Assembly: GCF_000230835.1 (NCBI RefSeq)
Contig: NZ_CM001240.1
Span: forward strand, 3,793,779 to 3,857,778
Origin: Clostridium sp. DL-VIII
Lineage (GTDB): Bacteria; Bacillota; Clostridia; Clostridiales; Clostridiaceae
Length of the DNA: 64,000 nt
Direction: 5' to 3'
The translations under genes were made by a program, and so were the position numbers. The notes under the pieces are model-generated. The model did not search any database. It was given only the letters and a program-made list of their open reading frames with translations, and had not been told where the DNA came from. This document shows positions 18,034-52,511 of the stretch, in pieces (position 1 is the first letter of the stretch; every line of letters begins with the position of its first letter).

Positions 18034-19470
18034 TTATTTATTAGCCTTTTGAACGTTTATTTTTTTACCTTTAATAGTCATATTTTTTAATTCCTTAATA
18101 ACTTTATTACCTTTTCCATTTAATATATCTACATAAGATACAGATTCCTGTACATCAATAATTCCGATATCATCTGCACTTAGCCCTTCTATGTTACAAA
18201 TAGCGCCGACAATATCACCTGGACGAATTTTCTTTTTCTTTCCACCACTTAAATAGATCTTAGTTATATTAGTATTTATAATTTTAGCTTTTTCTCTTTT
18301 CCTCTTAGGTTTACTTTTAAGCAGTTCTATTCCTTCATCAATTTTTATTTTATCATACTCAGATAAGTCATAGACTGGAATTTTAAAGCCAATAAATTCT
18401 TCTATATCACTTAATAATCTATCCTTACCTTCAATGCATAAACTTATGGCTTTTCCCTTTGCTCCAGCTCTTCCTGTTCTTCCTATTCTATGTACATAAG
18501 CTTCTTTTTCTACTGGAAGATCAAAGTTTATAACATGAGTAATTCCTTCAATATCAATTCCCCTTGAAGCCAAATCTGTTGCAACAAGTAATCTAAAATC
18601 TCCACGTCTAAAGTTTTCCATTGTATTTAATCTATCTTTTTGCAGCATACCACCATGAATTTTATTCGTTGAATATCCTTTTAAATTTAAATATTCAAAA
18701 ACTTTATCTACATTTTCTTTAGTTTTAGCAAATATCACTGCAGTCTCAGGCTTTTCATATATTAATATTTTATCTAATGCTTCTAACTTTTTTCCATACT
18801 CAACATAGTACAAATTGTGTTCAATATTAGTTGTAATAAGTTTTTGACTTTTAATGCTTATATCCACTGGCCTGCTCATATGTTTTTCACACAAATCTTT
18901 TATTTCCTCTGGAATTGTGGCTGAAAATAACATAGTGACCTTTTTCTTTGGAATTCTTCTAATGATTCCTTCAACTTGCCCTATAAACCCCATATTTAGC
19001 ATTTCATCTGCTTCATCGATAACAAAGTATTTAATCTTTTCTACATTTAAACTTCCTCTATCTATATGATCTAAAATTCTTCCTGGAGTTCCGACTACAA
19101 TATGAGTCTTTTGTTTTAATTTTCTTTCCTGTTCTGATATTGGTGCCTTACCAAATACAGCAACAGCTTTTATTCTTTTAAATCTTCCTATATTAGATAT
19201 ATCTTCATTTACTTGAATAGCAAGCTCTCTGGTTGGAGTTAGAATCAATGCTTGTGGGCTGTTTTCATCCCAATCTATCTTTTCACATAATGGAATAGCA
19301 AAAGCTGCTGTCTTTCCGCTTCCTGTCTGAGATTTAACTATAACATCTTTATTTAATAGAATCTCCGGTATAACTTTCTCTTGAACTTCTGATGGCTTTT
19401 TATATCCAAGACCTTCAATTGATTTCAAAAGTTCTTCTCCTATTTTGAACTCACTAAATTCACTATTCAT
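18034..19470 (-). CDS. dbpA: ATP-dependent RNA helicase DbpA/YxiN
   Basis: 478 residues, near the 479 of B. subtilis YxiN. Canonical DEAD-box motifs are all present: Q motif region YKKPSEVQEKVIPEIL, SQTGSGKT, PTRELAIQ, TPGRILD, DEADEML, FSAT, ATDLASRGIDIEG and HRIGRTGRAG. The last 75 residues (IYLSGGKKKKIRPGDIVGAI to KGKKINVQKANK) form the RRM-like DbpA RNA-binding domain that recognises hairpin 92 of 23S rRNA. It acts in large-subunit assembly. The neighbouring gene on the other strand (19729-20952) is a second, divergent helicase. The ATG follows AGGAGAATTTT. Confidence 0.94.
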   Translation of the reverse strand: MNSEFSEFKIGEELLKSIEGLGYKKPSEVQEKVIPEILLNKDVIVKSQTGSGKTAAFAIPLCEKIDWDENSPQALILTPTRELAIQVNEDISNIGRFKRIKAVAVFGKAPISEQERKLKQKTHIVVGTPGRILDHIDRGSLNVEKIKYFVIDEADEMLNMGFIGQVEGIIRRIPKKKVTMLFSATIPEEIKDLCEKHMSRPVDISIKSQKLITTNIEHNLYYVEYGKKLEALDKILIYEKPETAVIFAKTKENVDKVFEYLNLKGYSTNKIHGGMLQKDRLNTMENFRRGDFRLLVATDLASRGIDIEGITHVINFDLPVEKEAYVHRIGRTGRAGAKGKAISLCIEGKDRLLSDIEEFIGFKIPVYDLSEYDKIKIDEGIELLKSKPKRKREKAKIINTNITKIYLSGGKKKKIRPGDIVGAICNIEGLSADDIGIIDVQESVSYVDILNGKGNKVIKELKNMTIKGKKINVQKANK

Positions 19471-19728
19471 TACTTAAAATTCTCCTCATCTATATAAATC
19501 TTTCTTATTATACCATTCTTCTCTATTTTTAAAACATACTCTTAAGAAAAAGAATAAAAATATATAACTAGAAAAATAAAGACAATAAGGATATAATTAA
19601 TTGATTATGCGTAGATATAGTCCACTTAAATTTTTAAATGGCTGTTTTTATTGGATTTATATCAGATTGTCATAAGCACAGTTTATGCATTTTATTATAA
19701 ACAAAATCGAATTATAAAGGAGAAATTA

Positions 19729-20952
19729 ATGAGTACTTCATTTACTGATTTAAATTTAAATTCAAATATAATAGAAGGTCTTAAAAAACAGGGAATAACT
19801 ATTCCAACACCTATTCAAGCTTCAGCTATCATGCCAGCTCTTGAAAATAAGGATGTAATTGGTGAAGCATTTACTGGAAGCGGGAAAACCTTAGCATACC
19901 TTATACCACTTTTTCATAAAATAGACACTACTAAAAGAGAAATGCAGGGAATAATTTTGGCTCCAACCCACGAGTTAGCAATACAGATAGAAGACCAAAT
20001 CAAACTTTTGGCTGAAAACTCTGGTGTTCCTCTAACATCTTTATCAATTATTGGAGATGTTAATATAAACAATCAGATAAAAAAATTAAAAGATATTAAG
20101 CCACATATAATTGTTGGATCTACTGGAAGAATCCTTGATCTCATACAAAAAAAGAAGATAACTGCTCATACTATTAAAACTATTGTTATAGATGAAGGAG
20201 ATAATTTATTAGATCCTAAAAGAGATGCTATAACTAAAAATATAATAAAAACAACTATGAAAGATAGACAGCTTATGGTATTTTCTGCTTCTATAAAGCC
20301 TGAAACTTTAGAAACTGCTAAATCTTTAATGAAAGATCCAATTATTTTAAAAACTGAAAGCAAGCCTTCTATAAACCCTAATATTAAGCATATATTTATT
20401 GTATGTGAAAGACGTGATAAATTTGAGACCTTAAGAAAGCTTCTTGTAGCTGTTAATCCTGAGAAGGCAATTATTTTTGTTAATGATAATGATGATATTG
20501 AGCTCACAACAGTAAAATTAAACTATCATAGTAAGGATTGCTTTGCTATGACCGGTAAGATCTCTAAAGAAGATAGAAAACTTGCAATAGAAAGTTTTAG
20601 AAATGGAAAAATTAAAATATTAGTTTCATCGGATGTTACCGCAAGAGGTCTTGATGTTGAGGGTGTAACCCATGTATTCCACTTAGATTTACCATTAAAA
20701 TTAAATGAATATCTACATAGATCAGGTAGAACTGCTAGAGGAAACGCTCATGGTACTTCTATATGTTTAGCTACGACAAAACAACTTAATATAATTAAGA
20801 AGTACGAAAAAGAATTTAATATACAATTTGAGCAAAAGAAGGTCTTTGGTGGTATATTAGAAGATTATTCTTATACACCTGATCAAAATTCAGCTAAAGT
20901 TAAAAGTAATTCTTATAGTAATAAAGCTTCCAAATCAAAATTTCATAATTAA
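19729..20952 (+). CDS. Divergent DEAD-box family RNA helicase (motif II = DEGD)
   Basis: 407 residues from the ATG at 19729 after AAAGGAG; an in-frame ATG 78 bp earlier has no ribosome binding site. Two RecA-like domains are complete but several motifs are altered: Walker A FTGSGKT (48-54) is normal, motif Ia is APTHELAIQ, motif Ib STGR instead of TPGR, motif II DEGD (155-158) instead of DEAD, motif III SAS instead of SAT, and motif VI HRSGRTARG. There is no C-terminal RNA-binding domain, only a short Ser/Lys tail. ATPase residues Asp155/Glu156 are kept, so activity is likely. It is related to CshB-like clostridial helicases. Cold or stress RNA remodelling is an inference. Confidence 0.85.
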   Translation: MSTSFTDLNLNSNIIEGLKKQGITIPTPIQASAIMPALENKDVIGEAFTGSGKTLAYLIPLFHKIDTTKREMQGIILAPTHELAIQIEDQIKLLAENSGVPLTSLSIIGDVNINNQIKKLKDIKPHIIVGSTGRILDLIQKKKITAHTIKTIVIDEGDNLLDPKRDAITKNIIKTTMKDRQLMVFSASIKPETLETAKSLMKDPIILKTESKPSINPNIKHIFIVCERRDKFETLRKLLVAVNPEKAIIFVNDNDDIELTTVKLNYHSKDCFAMTGKISKEDRKLAIESFRNGKIKILVSSDVTARGLDVEGVTHVFHLDLPLKLNEYLHRSGRTARGNAHGTSICLATTKQLNIIKKYEKEFNIQFEQKKVFGGILEDYSYTPDQNSAKVKSNSYSNKASKSKFHN

Positions 20953-20959
20953 TTAAATA

Positions 20960-20999
20960 AAAAAGATTTCTATCTAAGAATTTGGATAGAAATCTTTTT
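20960..20999 (+). terminator. Terminator after the DEGD helicase
   Basis: AAAAAGATTTCTATC (20960-20974) pairs with GATAGAAATCTTTTT (20985-20999). It ends in a T run on the plus strand. Confidence 0.85.
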
Positions 21000-21095
21000 A
21001 TTATTTATACATTTAATTTTTCTCTTGTTTTTTCTGTTAATTTATAGTATATTTACAACATGATGTTCAAATAACAAATTAAAGGAGGTTTAACT

Positions 21096-21185
21096 ATGAA
21101 TATAATAAAATTATTTAATAAAATTGTAAAATTAAACATATTAATTTATTCATCTGTGGAGCCTCGTGAAATCCATATTATTTGA
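21096..21185 (+). CDS. 29-residue leader peptide upstream of the ABC exporter
   Basis: An ATG at 21096 follows a perfect AAAGGAGGTTTAACT ribosome binding site and encodes MNIIKLFNKIVKLNIL, then IYSSVEPREIHII, and a stop at 21183-21185. The short frame ends 36 nt before an intrinsic terminator that precedes the exporter start. The strong ribosome site on a tiny frame, followed by a terminator and then a multidrug ABC pair, is the layout of bmrB-bmrCD in B. subtilis, where antibiotic-stalled ribosomes relieve attenuation. The codons around Ser20-Val21-Glu22 include CTGTG, able to pair with CACAG in the 5' arm of the terminator, a possible (short) antiterminator. Confidence 0.65.
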   Translation: MNIIKLFNKIVKLNILIYSSVEPREIHII

Positions 21186-21221
21186 TATTATTTTTTATTA
21201 TCAATATTTTATTTTGCGTTT

Positions 21222-21250
21222 AACACAGCTCTGAATGGCTGTGTTTTTTT
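21222..21250 (+). terminator. Attenuator terminator between leader peptide and ABC genes
   Basis: AACACAGC (21222-21229) pairs with GCTGTGTT (21238-21245), then a run of T to 21250. It lies inside the leader, 39 nt before the first ABC start codon, so most transcripts would stop here unless readthrough is triggered. Confidence 0.8.
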
Positions 21251-21288
21251 GCGCTCAAAAAATTCATATTTATAAAAGGGGGATTTTT

Positions 21289-23022
21289 ATGACATTATTT
21301 AAAACTTACATTAGCAGGCATTGGAAATTTCTGATCATTCCAATTACTGCAATGATAGGATGCATTTGTGTAGATAGTACTTATCCTTATCTCCAAAAGA
21401 TATTTGTAGATAATATAATACTTGGAGATATGAAAGATGATTTATTTATTTTTATAATAATTCTAATTGTACTATCTCTAACCCAAGGTGTTTTAGGTTA
21501 TTTAAAAGAATATCTATTTGATAAATTTGCCTTAATTGTCTGCAAGAAGGTCAGACAAGATTTATATTTGAAATTTCAATCCTTTGAGTTTTCCTTTTTT
21601 GACAGCAACAATACTGGTGAATTACTTTCTAGAATAATTGAGGATGTTGATATTGTTTGGGATACTTTAGCTTTTGGAATGAGAGTTTTTATTGAAGCTA
21701 TAATACTTTTTTCAATATCTGCAATCATTATGTTTAGCATAAATGTTCCATTAACAATCGTATGTTTAATCGTATTACTGCCAGTAGCCTATATTGGAAC
21801 AATTATGGACAAGAAGTTTTGGACTGTTTATTCAAAGATCAGTGACCAAACTGCTGAAATAAATTCTATTGTTCAACAGGATGTCTCAGGAATTAGGCTA
21901 GTAAAAGCTTTTGCACGTGAAAAATATGAAATATCAAAATTTTTAAAGGTAAATAAAAAGTTCTTCGATTTAAATGTTGAGCAGGCTAAAATAGTCGGTA
22001 CCTATGGTCCTGTAATTGAATTTTTAACAAACGCAGCTCCAATTTTAATGATAATGTTTGGGGGATATTTATGTATTCAGGGTAATTTAAGTTTAGGAAG
22101 CTTAGTTGCATTTACTAGTTATATTTTTAATCTTTCTTGGTGTGTGAGAAATTTAGGTTCTCTTATAAATCTACTTTCTCAAAATAAAGCTTCTATGGAA
22201 AAAATATCAGATATATTAAATAGAAAATCAAGAATAGTCTCCAAAGAAAATGGCTATAATCCAGCTAAAGTTAAGGGAGATATTATTTTTAAAAACGTAA
22301 GCTTTTCTTATAATAATTTAGAAGTATTACATGATATAAATTTAAATATTCCTGCTGGCAGCAGTGTGGCTATAATGGGAACCACAGGCTGTGGCAAAAG
22401 CACCCTGATTTCTTTAATTGGAAGATACTATGATGTAACCAAAGGTGAAATACTAGTTGATAATGTTAATGTTAAAGATTGGAACTTAGAAACCTTAAGG
22501 TCATATATTTCTATTGTTTTTCAAGATACATTTTTATTTTCTGATACAATAAAAAATAATATTGATTTTGGCAGTAATAAATCTGAAAAAGAATTAGTAA
22601 AAGCAGTTAAAGACAGTTGCGCTTATTCTTTTATTCAAGAAATGCCTGAAGGTTTTGATACTATTATAGGTGAAAGAGGCCTTGGATTATCAGGTGGCCA
22701 AAAACAAAGATTATCTATCTCGAGGGCAATGATTAGAAAATCGCCAATTCTCATTCTTGATGATTCAACTTCTGCTCTTGACATGGAAACTGAGTTCAAG
22801 GTGCTCCAAAATCTAAAAAATAATAAAACAAAGACTACAACCTTTATAATTGCACATAGAATATCTGGCGTAAAGGATGCTGATATTATTTTATTCATGA
22901 AAGATGGTAAAATAGTTGAAAAAGGTAATCATGGCAGTTTAATTAATATTAAAGGGTATTATTATAATGTTTACTCCCATCAGTTTCAAGATTTTGATAC
23001 CCTTGCACTGGAGGCAAATTAA
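21289..23022 (+). CDS. Heterodimeric multidrug ABC exporter, half with degenerate catalytic site (BmrC/LmrC-like)
   Basis: 577 residues from the ATG at 21289 after AAAGGGGGA. A six-helix ABC membrane domain (about 1-310) is fused to a nucleotide-binding domain. Walker A is GTTGCGKS (364-371) and the signature is the canonical LSGGQKQR. Walker B ends in LILDDSTSALD, with Asp in place of the catalytic Glu. That substitution marks the degenerate-site subunit of heterodimers such as TM287/288, BmrCD and LmrCD. The stop codon is one base before the start of the partner gene. Drug export is inferred from the family; substrates are unknown. Confidence 0.9.
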   Translation: MTLFKTYISRHWKFLIIPITAMIGCICVDSTYPYLQKIFVDNIILGDMKDDLFIFIIILIVLSLTQGVLGYLKEYLFDKFALIVCKKVRQDLYLKFQSFEFSFFDSNNTGELLSRIIEDVDIVWDTLAFGMRVFIEAIILFSISAIIMFSINVPLTIVCLIVLLPVAYIGTIMDKKFWTVYSKISDQTAEINSIVQQDVSGIRLVKAFAREKYEISKFLKVNKKFFDLNVEQAKIVGTYGPVIEFLTNAAPILMIMFGGYLCIQGNLSLGSLVAFTSYIFNLSWCVRNLGSLINLLSQNKASMEKISDILNRKSRIVSKENGYNPAKVKGDIIFKNVSFSYNNLEVLHDINLNIPAGSSVAIMGTTGCGKSTLISLIGRYYDVTKGEILVDNVNVKDWNLETLRSYISIVFQDTFLFSDTIKNNIDFGSNKSEKELVKAVKDSCAYSFIQEMPEGFDTIIGERGLGLSGGQKQRLSISRAMIRKSPILILDDSTSALDMETEFKVLQNLKNNKTKTTTFIIAHRISGVKDADIILFMKDGKIVEKGNHGSLINIKGYYYNVYSHQFQDFDTLALEAN

Positions 23023-23023
23023 T

Positions 23024-24793
23024 ATGAATGACATTACAAACGAATCTTCTAAAATAGAAATTATAAAAAGATTATTATCTTATGTAAAACCCTATAAGCT
23101 GAAAGTTACTTTTGTTATACTGCTTCTGCTTATTGTCATGGCTTGCAATACCTTAACGCCTTATTTAATGAAAGTCTCTATTGATACTTTCGTAAAAGAA
23201 AAAAACATCAAAGGATTGTTATATATAGGCACTTCCCTAATATTTATTAATGTAATATCTATGATTTTATCTAGAATAAGAACAACTTCTATGTCTAAAA
23301 TAACTAACCAGATATTGGTTGATATAAGACATAGTCTATACACTCATATTCAAACCTTAAGCTTTAATTTCTTTGACAATAGGCCTGTTGGGAAAATTAT
23401 CTCTAGGGTTGTTGGTGATGTAAATGCACTTCAAAACCTATTAAATAATAGCATTGTAAATTTAATTCCAAATATATTTACTATTATTTTAGTAGTTTGT
23501 ATGATGCTTATTTTAAATATGTCACTTGGTGCCATTTGCTTAATTACAATACCATTCTTAACCTTTGTTATGTTTTTTATCGAAATCAAGGCTCATGATA
23601 AGTGGAAACTTTTTAGAGAAAACAGATCTTCCTTAATTGGATACACTCATGAGTCTTTATCAGGTATGAAGGTAATTCAAGGTTTCAGTAAAAAACTATA
23701 TACTAAAGGAATATTTGATATCCATATAGGTAAACATGCTGATGGTTTTATGACAGCAGTATACACTCAGGATTTTTTCTGGCCATTTCTAGATTTATTT
23801 CGTGGTATAAGCATTATAATATTGGTCGTCTCTGGATTTATATTAACTTCAAGAGATAACCTTACTCTCGGTACTTTAATAGCGTTTTTTATGTATATGG
23901 AAATGCTTTGGAGGCCAATAATAAATCTCTCTTCATTTTATAATGCTTTTGTAACCAGTATGTCTGCTGGCGAAAGAATATTTGATATTCTAGATACCAA
24001 AAGTGATATGATAGATTCAGCTTCATCTAATATCCTGCCTAAAATTAAAGGAAATATTGAATTTGATCACGTTACTTTCTCTTATGCTAAAGGAGAAATC
24101 GCTGTCTTAAAAGATACTTGCTTTAATTTAAAAGCAGGAGAAAAAATTGCTTTAGTTGGAGAAACAGGTGCAGGTAAAACTACAATAACCAATTTAATAA
24201 GCAGATTTTACGATCCCACTTTTGGTACTGTAAAGATTGATGGCACTGATATAAAAGGTGTTACTGTTGAAAGTTTAAGAAGTCAGATGGGTATAATGCT
24301 TCAGGATTCATTTTTGTTTTCAACTTCAATAAAGGAAAATATACGTTATGGAAAATTAAATGCTACTGACGCAGAAGTAATTCAGGCTGCTAAAGCTGTC
24401 AATGCTCATGAATTTATTGAAAAACTTGAAGATGGCTATGATACAGAGGTAAATGAAAGAGGTTCTAGGCTTTCTCTTGGACAAAGACAATTAATAGCTT
24501 TCGCAAGAGCATTAATTGCAGATCCTAGAATATTAATCTTAGATGAAGCAACAGCAAATATTGATACCGAAACTGAGTTATTAGTTCAAGCTGGTATTAA
24601 AAAACTTATGGATGGAAGAACTTCTATCGTAATAGCGCATAGGCTTTCTACTATACGTGATTGCGATAAAATTTTCGTTCTCTCTCATGGTAAAATAGTC
24701 GAAGATGGAACCCACGATGAACTCCTTGCAAATCAAGGCTACTATCACAAACTATATTCAGCACAATATAGTTTTTTAAAAAAAGATGCATAA
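23024..24793 (+). CDS. Heterodimeric multidrug ABC exporter, catalytic half (BmrD/LmrD-like)
   Basis: 589 residues from the ATG at 23024, preceded by GGAGGCAAATTAAT inside the end of the partner gene. It has the same six-helix plus NBD layout. Walker A is GETGAGKT and Walker B ends in ILDEATANID with the catalytic Glu. The signature is LSLGQRQ, changed from LSGGQ. The two subunits therefore complement each other: this one gives the competent Walker B, the partner gives the competent signature, and the other site is impaired on both sides. Co-translation with the partner gene is expected from the 1-bp gap. Confidence 0.9.
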   Translation: MNDITNESSKIEIIKRLLSYVKPYKLKVTFVILLLLIVMACNTLTPYLMKVSIDTFVKEKNIKGLLYIGTSLIFINVISMILSRIRTTSMSKITNQILVDIRHSLYTHIQTLSFNFFDNRPVGKIISRVVGDVNALQNLLNNSIVNLIPNIFTIILVVCMMLILNMSLGAICLITIPFLTFVMFFIEIKAHDKWKLFRENRSSLIGYTHESLSGMKVIQGFSKKLYTKGIFDIHIGKHADGFMTAVYTQDFFWPFLDLFRGISIIILVVSGFILTSRDNLTLGTLIAFFMYMEMLWRPIINLSSFYNAFVTSMSAGERIFDILDTKSDMIDSASSNILPKIKGNIEFDHVTFSYAKGEIAVLKDTCFNLKAGEKIALVGETGAGKTTITNLISRFYDPTFGTVKIDGTDIKGVTVESLRSQMGIMLQDSFLFSTSIKENIRYGKLNATDAEVIQAAKAVNAHEFIEKLEDGYDTEVNERGSRLSLGQRQLIAFARALIADPRILILDEATANIDTETELLVQAGIKKLMDGRTSIVIAHRLSTIRDCDKIFVLSHGKIVEDGTHDELLANQGYYHKLYSAQYSFLKKDA

Positions 24794-25060: not shown

Positions 25061-25624
25061 ATGAAAAAGAAGATTATTAGTCTATTATTAATTGCAATTA
25101 TTAGTTCAACAGCACTAATTTCTTGTGGTAAAACTAAAGCACCATCAGATTCAAATAAACAACCGTCGGTGACAGAAGAGCAATCACCTAAAGATACTTC
25201 TAAGGATTCTAAGATAGTAGGTGAAAATAATAAGCCAACAGTTGAGGTAAAACAAATTGCAACAATCGCTGATTTTAAAGATAAAAGTAAAGCTGATATA
25301 GAAAAAATTCTAGGTAAGCCTGTAAGTGAAGATGATTCTAAGTCTACATACGAAAAAGACAATTATACTTTTGAAGTCACTTATTTAAATTCAAAATGCA
25401 ATGAAATCAAAATAACACCTAAAACAGATATGAAATTTCCAGCTGATGGAGCAAATATTTTAAATTTAGTCGGAATTAATGCTGGAGATCCTGATAATCT
25501 TTCACCTGCTGGTATGGAATGGGATAATAAATTTGATACGTATAAAATTAACGTAGTTTCAGATAATCAAGTCCAGGGGAAAATTTCATATGCAGACATT
25601 ATCTTAAATAATCCATCAAAATAA
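25061..25624 (+). CDS. Putative lipoprotein of unknown function
   Basis: 187 residues. The start follows GGAGGG. A signal peptide with lipobox ALISC gives lipidation at Cys22. A low-complexity Lys/Ser/Asp/Pro linker (about 25-60) leads to a small globular domain with DFKDKSKADIEKILGKPVSE and YTFEVTYLNSKCNEIKIT. I do not recognise a named family; the fold pattern (short helix, then strands) resembles small clostridial beta-sheet lipoproteins. It is alone between the ABC exporter and the convergent metal-permease operon, with a convergent terminator after it. Confidence 0.75.
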   Translation: MKKKIISLLLIAIISSTALISCGKTKAPSDSNKQPSVTEEQSPKDTSKDSKIVGENNKPTVEVKQIATIADFKDKSKADIEKILGKPVSEDDSKSTYEKDNYTFEVTYLNSKCNEIKITPKTDMKFPADGANILNLVGINAGDPDNLSPAGMEWDNKFDTYKINVVSDNQVQGKISYADIILNNPSK

Positions 25625-52375: not shown

Positions 52376-52480
52376 CTCTTATCTTTCAGCCTAAACTGCA
52401 GGATTTGGCACCTAATTATTTGTATTTTATAATCGGTTGCCGGGTTTCACGGGGCCAGTCCCTCCACCACTCTTGATAAG
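52376..52480 (-). promoter_or_regulatory. SAM-I (S-box) riboswitch aptamer
   Basis: Minus strand, 5' end at 52480. The conserved order is visible: CTTATCAAGAG at the P1 5' strand, GGTGGAGGGACTGGCCC, then GATGAAACCCGGCAACC-like (CGTGAAACCCGGCAACC), a variable P3, GGTGCCAAATCCTGCAG and the P1 3' strand GAAAGATAAGAG. It binds S-adenosylmethionine and stops transcription at the hairpin at 52331-52354 when SAM is plentiful. It controls the aminotransferase-metQNI-dehydrogenase operon. Confidence 0.95.
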
Positions 52481-52511
52481 TTATTTAATTTTCGTTTTTT
52501 CCTATAGGATT

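Follow-up and report, generated by a model that had tools for sequence, protein, structure and literature searches.

A probable ribosome-sensing attenuator with three alternative RNA pairings upstream of a two-subunit ABC exporter in Clostridium sp. DL-VIII

The RNA leading into a two-subunit ABC exporter of Clostridium sp. DL-VIII appears to carry a ribosome-sensing transcription attenuator built on three alternative pairings, a reading to which we assign a probability of roughly three in four. It is based on the parts that are present, their conservation in relatives, paired changes between them and the logic of their folding. The case for an attenuator is strong and that for a switch that reads occupancy of the leader start codon is good; the observed leader elements are real and probably functional. 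The window, by which we mean the whole 64,000-nucleotide stretch that was analysed (contig NZ_CM001240.1, positions 3,793,779 to 3,857,778), comes from a genome of 6.48 Mb in one contig. Its relevant features, in window coordinates, are as follows.

19651-20952, plus strand: DEAD-box helicase gene (Pfam), directly upstream of the exporter unit
21025-21053, plus strand: candidate promoter TTGTTT-17-TATATT, picked by eye, weak and putative, with 8 of 12 consensus matches
21081-21088, plus strand: leader Shine-Dalgarno sequence AAAGGAGG, read from the sequence, 7 nt 5' of the ATG
21085-21102, plus strand: strand 1, GAGGTTT (21085-21091) and the start region ATGAATA (21096-21102), a partner of strand 2
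21096-21185, plus strand: leader frame from the ORF list, 29 codons, ATG to TGA, MNIIKLFNKIVKLNILIYSSVEPREIHII
21147-21165, plus strand: strand 2, TATTCAT-CTGTG-GAGCCTC, the switch strand, leader codons 18-24
21222-21250, plus strand: intrinsic terminator, stem 21222-21245, T-run 21244-21250, hairpin -11.2 kcal/mol
21224-21236, plus strand: strand 3, CACAG...TGAAT, 5' arm and loop of the terminator
21276-21283, plus strand: exporter Shine-Dalgarno sequence AAGGGGGA, read from the sequence
21289-23022, plus strand: ABC half-transporter 1, 577 aa, membrane and ATPase domains, Walker B ILILDDSTSALD
23024-24793, plus strand: ABC half-transporter 2, 589 aa, membrane and ATPase domains, Walker B ILILDEATANID

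The gene order is the DEAD-box helicase, its own terminator-like hairpin (20960-20999), the 29-codon leader, the terminator and the two ABC half-transporters. A second, divergent frame 5' of the exporter unit (18034-19470, minus strand) looks DEAD-box helicase-like by eye, and a frame 3' of the exporter (25061-25624, plus strand) would encode a small lipoprotein-like protein, with a weak, sub-cut-off match to the LytA acidic lipoprotein and no Pfam match. Elsewhere in the window, a SAM riboswitch was detected on the minus strand (52376-52482, 85.6 bits). Among named records, the nearest exporter homologs, at 82-85% identity, belong to Clostridium sp., C. puniceum and C. beijerinckii, followed by those of C. 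neonatale (75%) and C. ihumii (65%).

Both exporter proteins carry PF00664 and PF00005, the domains of membrane ABC exporters. TM287/288 scored 327 and 402 bits against the two subunits, and BmrC/BmrD (YheI/YheH) scored 301 and 312 bits; full-length eukaryotic ABCB proteins, with two matched stretches apiece, outscored both pairs. The last residue of Walker B is Asp in the first subunit and Glu in the second, and we take the Asp to mark a degenerate ATP site. Judged by sequence, the two subunits resemble heterodimeric drug-type exporters. The first-pass annotation had named them a multidrug ABC exporter; a two-subunit ABC exporter resembling multidrug ones stands. Both proteins lie under every NCBIfam cut-off shown, and any cargo assigned to the exporter is presumptive.

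The 29-codon leader with a good ribosome site that had been noticed at first pass is present, and it is presumably translated. As in ribosome-mediated attenuators, a short translatable frame lies upstream of the exporter and an intrinsic terminator lies between the two, in both cases at the level of sequence. The terminator, at which transcription would be expected to end, has a stem of 9 bp and a loop of 6 bases, and its T-run stops 38 bases before the exporter ATG (21289), not 39 as first annotated. The interval 20900-21400 contains two terminator-like sites, compared with a shuffle mean of 0.0 (sd 0.2), and the folding of 21081-21289 beats that of shuffled sequences (z -3.04); a longer stretch around the leader is less striking (z -1.72, with 14 of 200 shuffles equally good). 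A promoter scan around the leader did not list the candidate TTGTTT-17-TATATT, and promoter-like sites there were no commoner than in shuffles. At the corresponding place in relatives, a near-perfect sigma-A-type promoter (11-12 of 12 matches) stands just 5' of the leader in 34 of 75 loci, and none was found in 39 control stretches.

Strand 2 has two mutually exclusive partners. With strand 1 it forms a duplex of -17.0 kcal/mol (hereafter 1:2), in which GAGGTTT pairs with GAGCCTC and ATGAATA with TATTCAT; with strand 3 it forms a duplex of -11.0 kcal/mol with 10 Watson-Crick pairs (2:3), comparable in strength to the terminator hairpin. The core of the latter, CTGTG (21154-21158) with CACAG (21224-21228), had been recognized at first pass; our analysis adds the flanking ATTCA:TGAAT and a larger helix in which the distal leader pairs with the leader's own ribosome site and start codon. 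The antiterminator formed by strands 2 and 3 overlaps the leader and excludes the terminator, which is the arrangement expected of an attenuator. When the leader codons were reordered 300 times, 42 orders matched the ribosome-site pairing, 15 the terminator-arm pairing and 2 both; in this sequence taken alone, neither pairing is rare by itself but their combination is. Rfam had nothing in the leader at its gathering score, and a relaxed search of 21000-21300 gave no family; a relaxed match of the leader to a CRISPR repeat (E 0.62) was rejected.

The nascent window RNA was folded up to the terminator loop, which is when the choice between pairings would fall, with the stretch covered by a ribosome kept unpaired for each codon position in turn. 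In the ribosome-free RNA, the probability of 1:2 was 0.95-0.96 and that of 2:3 was 0.01. The anti-antiterminator holds the leader's own ribosome site, a property of VmlR/CplR-type elements that is seen here in this probability and, in relatives, in the anti-SD helix. With a ribosome at codons 1-6, CTGTG:CACAG formed with a probability of 0.98-1.00, falling to 0.72 at codon 7; at codons 8-12 the 1:2 pairing was back, and at codons 13-15 the 2:3 pairing reached 0.67-0.86. The value of 0.00 for 2:3 at codons 16-26 follows largely from the construction of the mask and is not counted as evidence. At codons 27 and 28 the 2:3 probabilities were 0.53 and 0.35, and with the ribosome on codon 29 or on the stop codon, 1:2 stood at 0.96. 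Across the 75 loci, placing a ribosome on the start codon raised the mean number of 2:3 pairs from 2.95 to 8.24; 49 loci gained at least two pairs and none lost two. Twenty of the 75 relatives form at least seven 2:3 pairs without a ribosome, so the rule that no translation means no expression fails there unless 1:2 forms first. In the finished RNA at equilibrium, the terminator was favoured (0.92-0.93) at every ribosome position, and switching must therefore be kinetic, decided during RNA synthesis.

These pairings suggest how the switch might operate. With no ribosome on the leader, the Shine-Dalgarno sequence and start codon would pair with the distal codons, the terminator arm would be left free, and transcription would end before the exporter. 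Were a ribosome to be held on the start codon or within the first six or so codons, it would cover strand 1 and leave strand 2 free; strand 2 could then capture the emerging 5' arm of the terminator, and polymerase would continue into the exporter. A ribosome crossing the distal codons would occupy strand 2, and the terminator would form again. The inducers expected from this scheme would be drugs that block the start or the first steps of translation, namely lincosamides, pleuromutilins and streptogramin A. The first-pass annotation had instead placed the inducing stall near codons 20-22. These codons (TCT GTG GAG, 21153-21161) are part of the antiterminator strand, which a ribosome there would cover, so that a stall at this position would favour termination; the earlier position is probably the wrong way round, the loss of 2:3 under a ribosome on strand 2 being a physical argument built into the footprint and not a measurement. 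Folding with and without a stalled ribosome, which had been suggested as a check, predicts a switch between pairings with a ribosome at codons 1-6.

Exporter homologs were found in 38 of 68 genus genomes and in 108 of 206 family genomes (E 1e-120, tallies that include more distant paralogs), homology being assigned by search score and not by tree-based orthology. Upstream DNA was taken for 97 of the 98 hits with E < 1e-150. In a first scan, a leader with an SD/anti-SD pairing followed by a terminator was present before 75 of the 97 loci, among which L057, L129 and L132 look like wrong assignments; the scan missed the window, two of whose seven SD/anti-SD pairs are G-T. With stricter thresholds, which were chosen after the results of the first scan, the leader, anti-SD helix and terminator preceded 72 of 96 homologs, and the full layout including a good 2:3 helix preceded 61 of 96; the window passes both tests. 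The full layout turned up in 1 of 960 dinucleotide shuffles and in 0 of 45 other gene-sized window frames (46 were scanned, one of which is the exporter frame read from an ATG in the terminator at 21235). The 35 homologs that fail the strict test (24 lacking the combination of leader, anti-SD helix and terminator, and 11 whose 2:3 helix is not good) are either real exceptions or lie beyond the 450-nt limit, and at least L068, L094, L115, L128 and L139 had shown the layout in the first scan. The leader frames of relatives stand at the same place and are 25-54 codons long. The distance from the end of strand 2 to the leader end is 16-25 nt in 66 of 75 loci, as would be expected if a finishing ribosome must cover part of strand 2.

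Outside the family, the leader, anti-SD helix and terminator were found before 3 of 20 homologs drawn from 391 sampled class genomes (L156, L157 and L158; families f53 and f63). No such leader was seen by eye in a Listeria relative of about 40% identity. Another clostridial locus outside the family (L162, genome G217) has a GGAGGCAGGC:GCCTGTCTCT leader, but the scan found no terminator there. A search for the strand 2/strand 3 pattern of the close clade gave one occurrence in the DL-VIII genome and matches in 10 of 68 genus genomes; an SD/anti-SD pattern gave 2 hits in the DL-VIII genome compared with 5 for its backward control, but this pattern (ACCTC) mismatches the GCCTC of the window and would therefore miss further copies of that kind. 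Two further observations concern the arrangement of these regions. At least two terminator-like hairpins follow the leader in 50 of the 75 relatives (L058-L139), and many of the second hairpins, which lie between leader and exporter, have CCATGG-type stems. At L057, two tandem leader-terminator units were seen by eye between about -450 and -1 relative to the exporter; the leaders end SSVMPSGVYIL and SSVMHFKWRYNIV, each is followed by its own terminator, and the pair looks like a duplicated attenuator with diverged pairings.

Strands 2 and 3 covary between loci. The mean helix score of strand 2 was 16.8 with its own terminator arm and 12.4 with the arms of other loci, and 0 of 10,000 partner permutations reached the former, also after collapsing to 64 distinct pairs, in a test that covers all 75 loci, wrong assignments included, and whose permutations do not count independent evolutionary events. 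In the swap table, only 15 of the 75 loci had their own arm as the best or tied best match, since some arms suit many leaders. Partners at different loci include CTGTG:CACAG, TCAGTC:GACTGA, AATAGCCC:GGGCTATT, ATTAGCCC:GGGCTAAT, TTGTAGCCC:GGGCTGCAA and CAATAGTCC:GGACTATTG, and at L076 both partners of strand 2 differ jointly from those of the window (TCAGTC:GACTGA and TTACCTCT:GGAGGTAA). In 51 loci, alternative standard pairs swap at positions -1 to -4 beside a shared CC (25 G-C and 22 A-T at position -2, 39 A-T and 11 T-A at position -3), counts that use the helix picked as best, so that the swap test is the fairer measure. The pairing between leader and terminator arm, proposed at first pass from the window only, is thus kept through paired changes in relatives. 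Terminators 5' of genes are common, and one could envisage a plain insulating terminator next to a chance short frame, with no switch. The joint changes in strands 2 and 3 argue against this, as does the near-absence of the layout from shuffles (1 of 960) and its absence from other frames (0 of 45), and the upstream gene already has its own terminator-like hairpin; we regard the chance of simple insulation as close to negligible.

The leader peptide was considered as the conserved unit and rejected: a peptide search matched 26 of 68 genus genomes at E 10, the best match outside the window being 7.7e-4. Since the peptide matches were weak and the pairings were shared upstream of exporter homologs, the RNA was examined instead. 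Reading frames were anchored on base pairing with the A of GGAGG, which failed for 3 of 75 leaders; among the other 72, 49 read strand 2 in frame 0, 22 in frame 2 and 1 in frame 1, giving, by frame, SPTS/NPIS, LALS/TLPQ/SVKP and QPCL. With strand 2 read in all three frames, it is the RNA and not the peptide that is conserved there, and the leader peptide, whose conservation had been named at first pass as a point to check, is around codons 20-22 not the unit retained across relatives. SSVxP is nevertheless kept within the close clade and in L076 (whose upstream sequence equals that of the C. ihumii locus L036), in the latter despite the changed letters of strand 2, and this retention may reflect inheritance or local constraint. 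It is the observation that would fit a peptide-specific drug stall at SSV-E-P (codons 19-23) that itself turns the exporter on. Such a stall is improbable in our judgment, given that the ribosome at codons 19-23 covers the antiterminator strand (by construction of the mask) and that the 72 relatives read the same RNA as SPTS, NPIS, LALS, TLPQ or QPCL.

A layout of three pairings is typical of the trp attenuator, and 8 of the 29 leader residues are Ile, which raises the question of whether the leader ribosome is held up by an uncharged tRNA, with the exporter responding to amino-acid starvation. A parallel with trp is also drawn in PMC4191407. By eye, no run of a single amino acid, the mark of that class, is kept across the 75 leader peptides, and the target is an exporter and not a biosynthesis or tRNA-charging gene; starvation sensing is very unlikely. 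We consider just as unlikely a switch that is independent of translation, in which the leader RNA is the target of a protein or small molecule and the short frame has no role of its own. The conserved RNA pairings would suit it, and the lack of an Rfam match leaves room for an undescribed RNA, but a frame of 25-54 codons recurs, complete with start codon and good ribosome site, and strand 1 is the ribosome site itself.

We therefore retain the ribosome-sensing attenuator as the preferred reading. A wider proposal, for which our confidence is evenly balanced, is that it represents an undescribed class, widespread among the Clostridiaceae and present too in at least two further families of clostridia, that senses start-codon occupancy, with a frame that carries the anti-SD/antiterminator strand at a roughly fixed distance from its stop, a peptide that is irrelevant, and a tandem duplication in one species. 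If the start-occupancy reading is right, many clostridia, including the C. beijerinckii group of solvent producers, would silence an intrinsic exporter until the start of translation is blocked, and a testable rule would be at hand for the drugs that induce it. Leaders of the erm type sense drugs through peptide-specific stalls. The present group would separate two modes of drug sensing by leaders, such stalls and the mere occupation of the start codon, and the natural experiment of three reading frames favours the latter.

No description of this attenuator was found in a search of open papers. One reported clostridial sRNA is a possible description of the same element as the window leader. 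It is induced by clindamycin and lies just 5' of an ABC gene (Chen et al. 2011, mBio; via PMC5418344, PMC12101431), and it resembles the window leader in being a short RNA immediately upstream of an ABC gene; it responds to a lincosamide. A homolog of its transporter gives clindamycin resistance in Staphylococcus (PMC5418344), which suggests that the gene is an ABC-F gene, another ABC gene than the window exporter. A 2010 study predicted attenuators upstream of ABC genes (PMC2965389), and PMC8632094 describes other uORF motifs, the words 'ABC transporter' being absent from its main text. Lincosamide, streptogramin A and pleuromutilin drugs stall ribosomes at the start codon of such leaders (PMC12421871).

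The predicted switching logic agrees with that of vmlR of B. subtilis. There, the anti-antiterminator is a first hairpin that contains a short frame together with its ribosome site, a ribosome stalling at initiation releases the antiterminator, and a terminator precedes the resistance gene (PMC9226507). The window shares the SD-holding anti-antiterminator and the terminator before the gene, and is predicted to share the start-stall logic. In contrast, the vmlR frame has 3 codons (MIN) compared with 25-54 in the present group, its target is an ABC-F ribosome protector and not a membrane exporter, and translation of its gene is also controlled (PMC9226507); in the window the switch strand sits inside the long leader frame. 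In cplR of Clostridioides difficile and other clostridia, a 5' hairpin with an anti-SD element sequesters a short frame, and a drug-stalled ribosome on that frame opens the gene (PMC10201436). The clostridial setting and the SD-sequestering hairpin are common to both, as the ribosome-stall logic probably is, whereas cplR has a 3-codon frame (MRI), an ABC-F gene and dual control of transcription and translation (PMC10201436). The very short frame before an ABC-F gene that marks the VmlR/CplR type is replaced here by 29 codons before a PF00664-PF00005 protein. For patAB of Streptococcus pneumoniae, a heterodimeric ABC exporter as here, a terminator, antiterminator and anti-antiterminator are predicted; the term 'leader peptide' is absent from the main text, and the signal was not investigated there (PMC4319486).

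A related system with an exporter as target is bmrB-bmrCD of B. subtilis, induced by lincomycin, erythromycin and chloramphenicol, which likewise combines a leader frame, a terminator and a two-subunit ABC exporter, there a multidrug one, and has an antiterminator and an anti-antiterminator, the role of the latter being left open in that article (PMC4191407). The likeness rests on layout and not on a comparison of leader sequences. Attenuation of the kind found in bmrB-bmrCD or the erm/vga leaders had been claimed at first pass, and what holds of this is a leader-frame attenuator before an ABC exporter, without the stall at codons 20-22. The bmrB terminator lies within a 53-codon frame (PMC4191407), unlike that of the window, which begins at 21222, 36 nt past the leader stop at 21185. 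What sets the present group apart is that the switch strand sits within a long leader frame and the terminator comes after the stop codon of that frame, that the target is an exporter in clostridia, and that the RNA is widely conserved while its peptide drifts.
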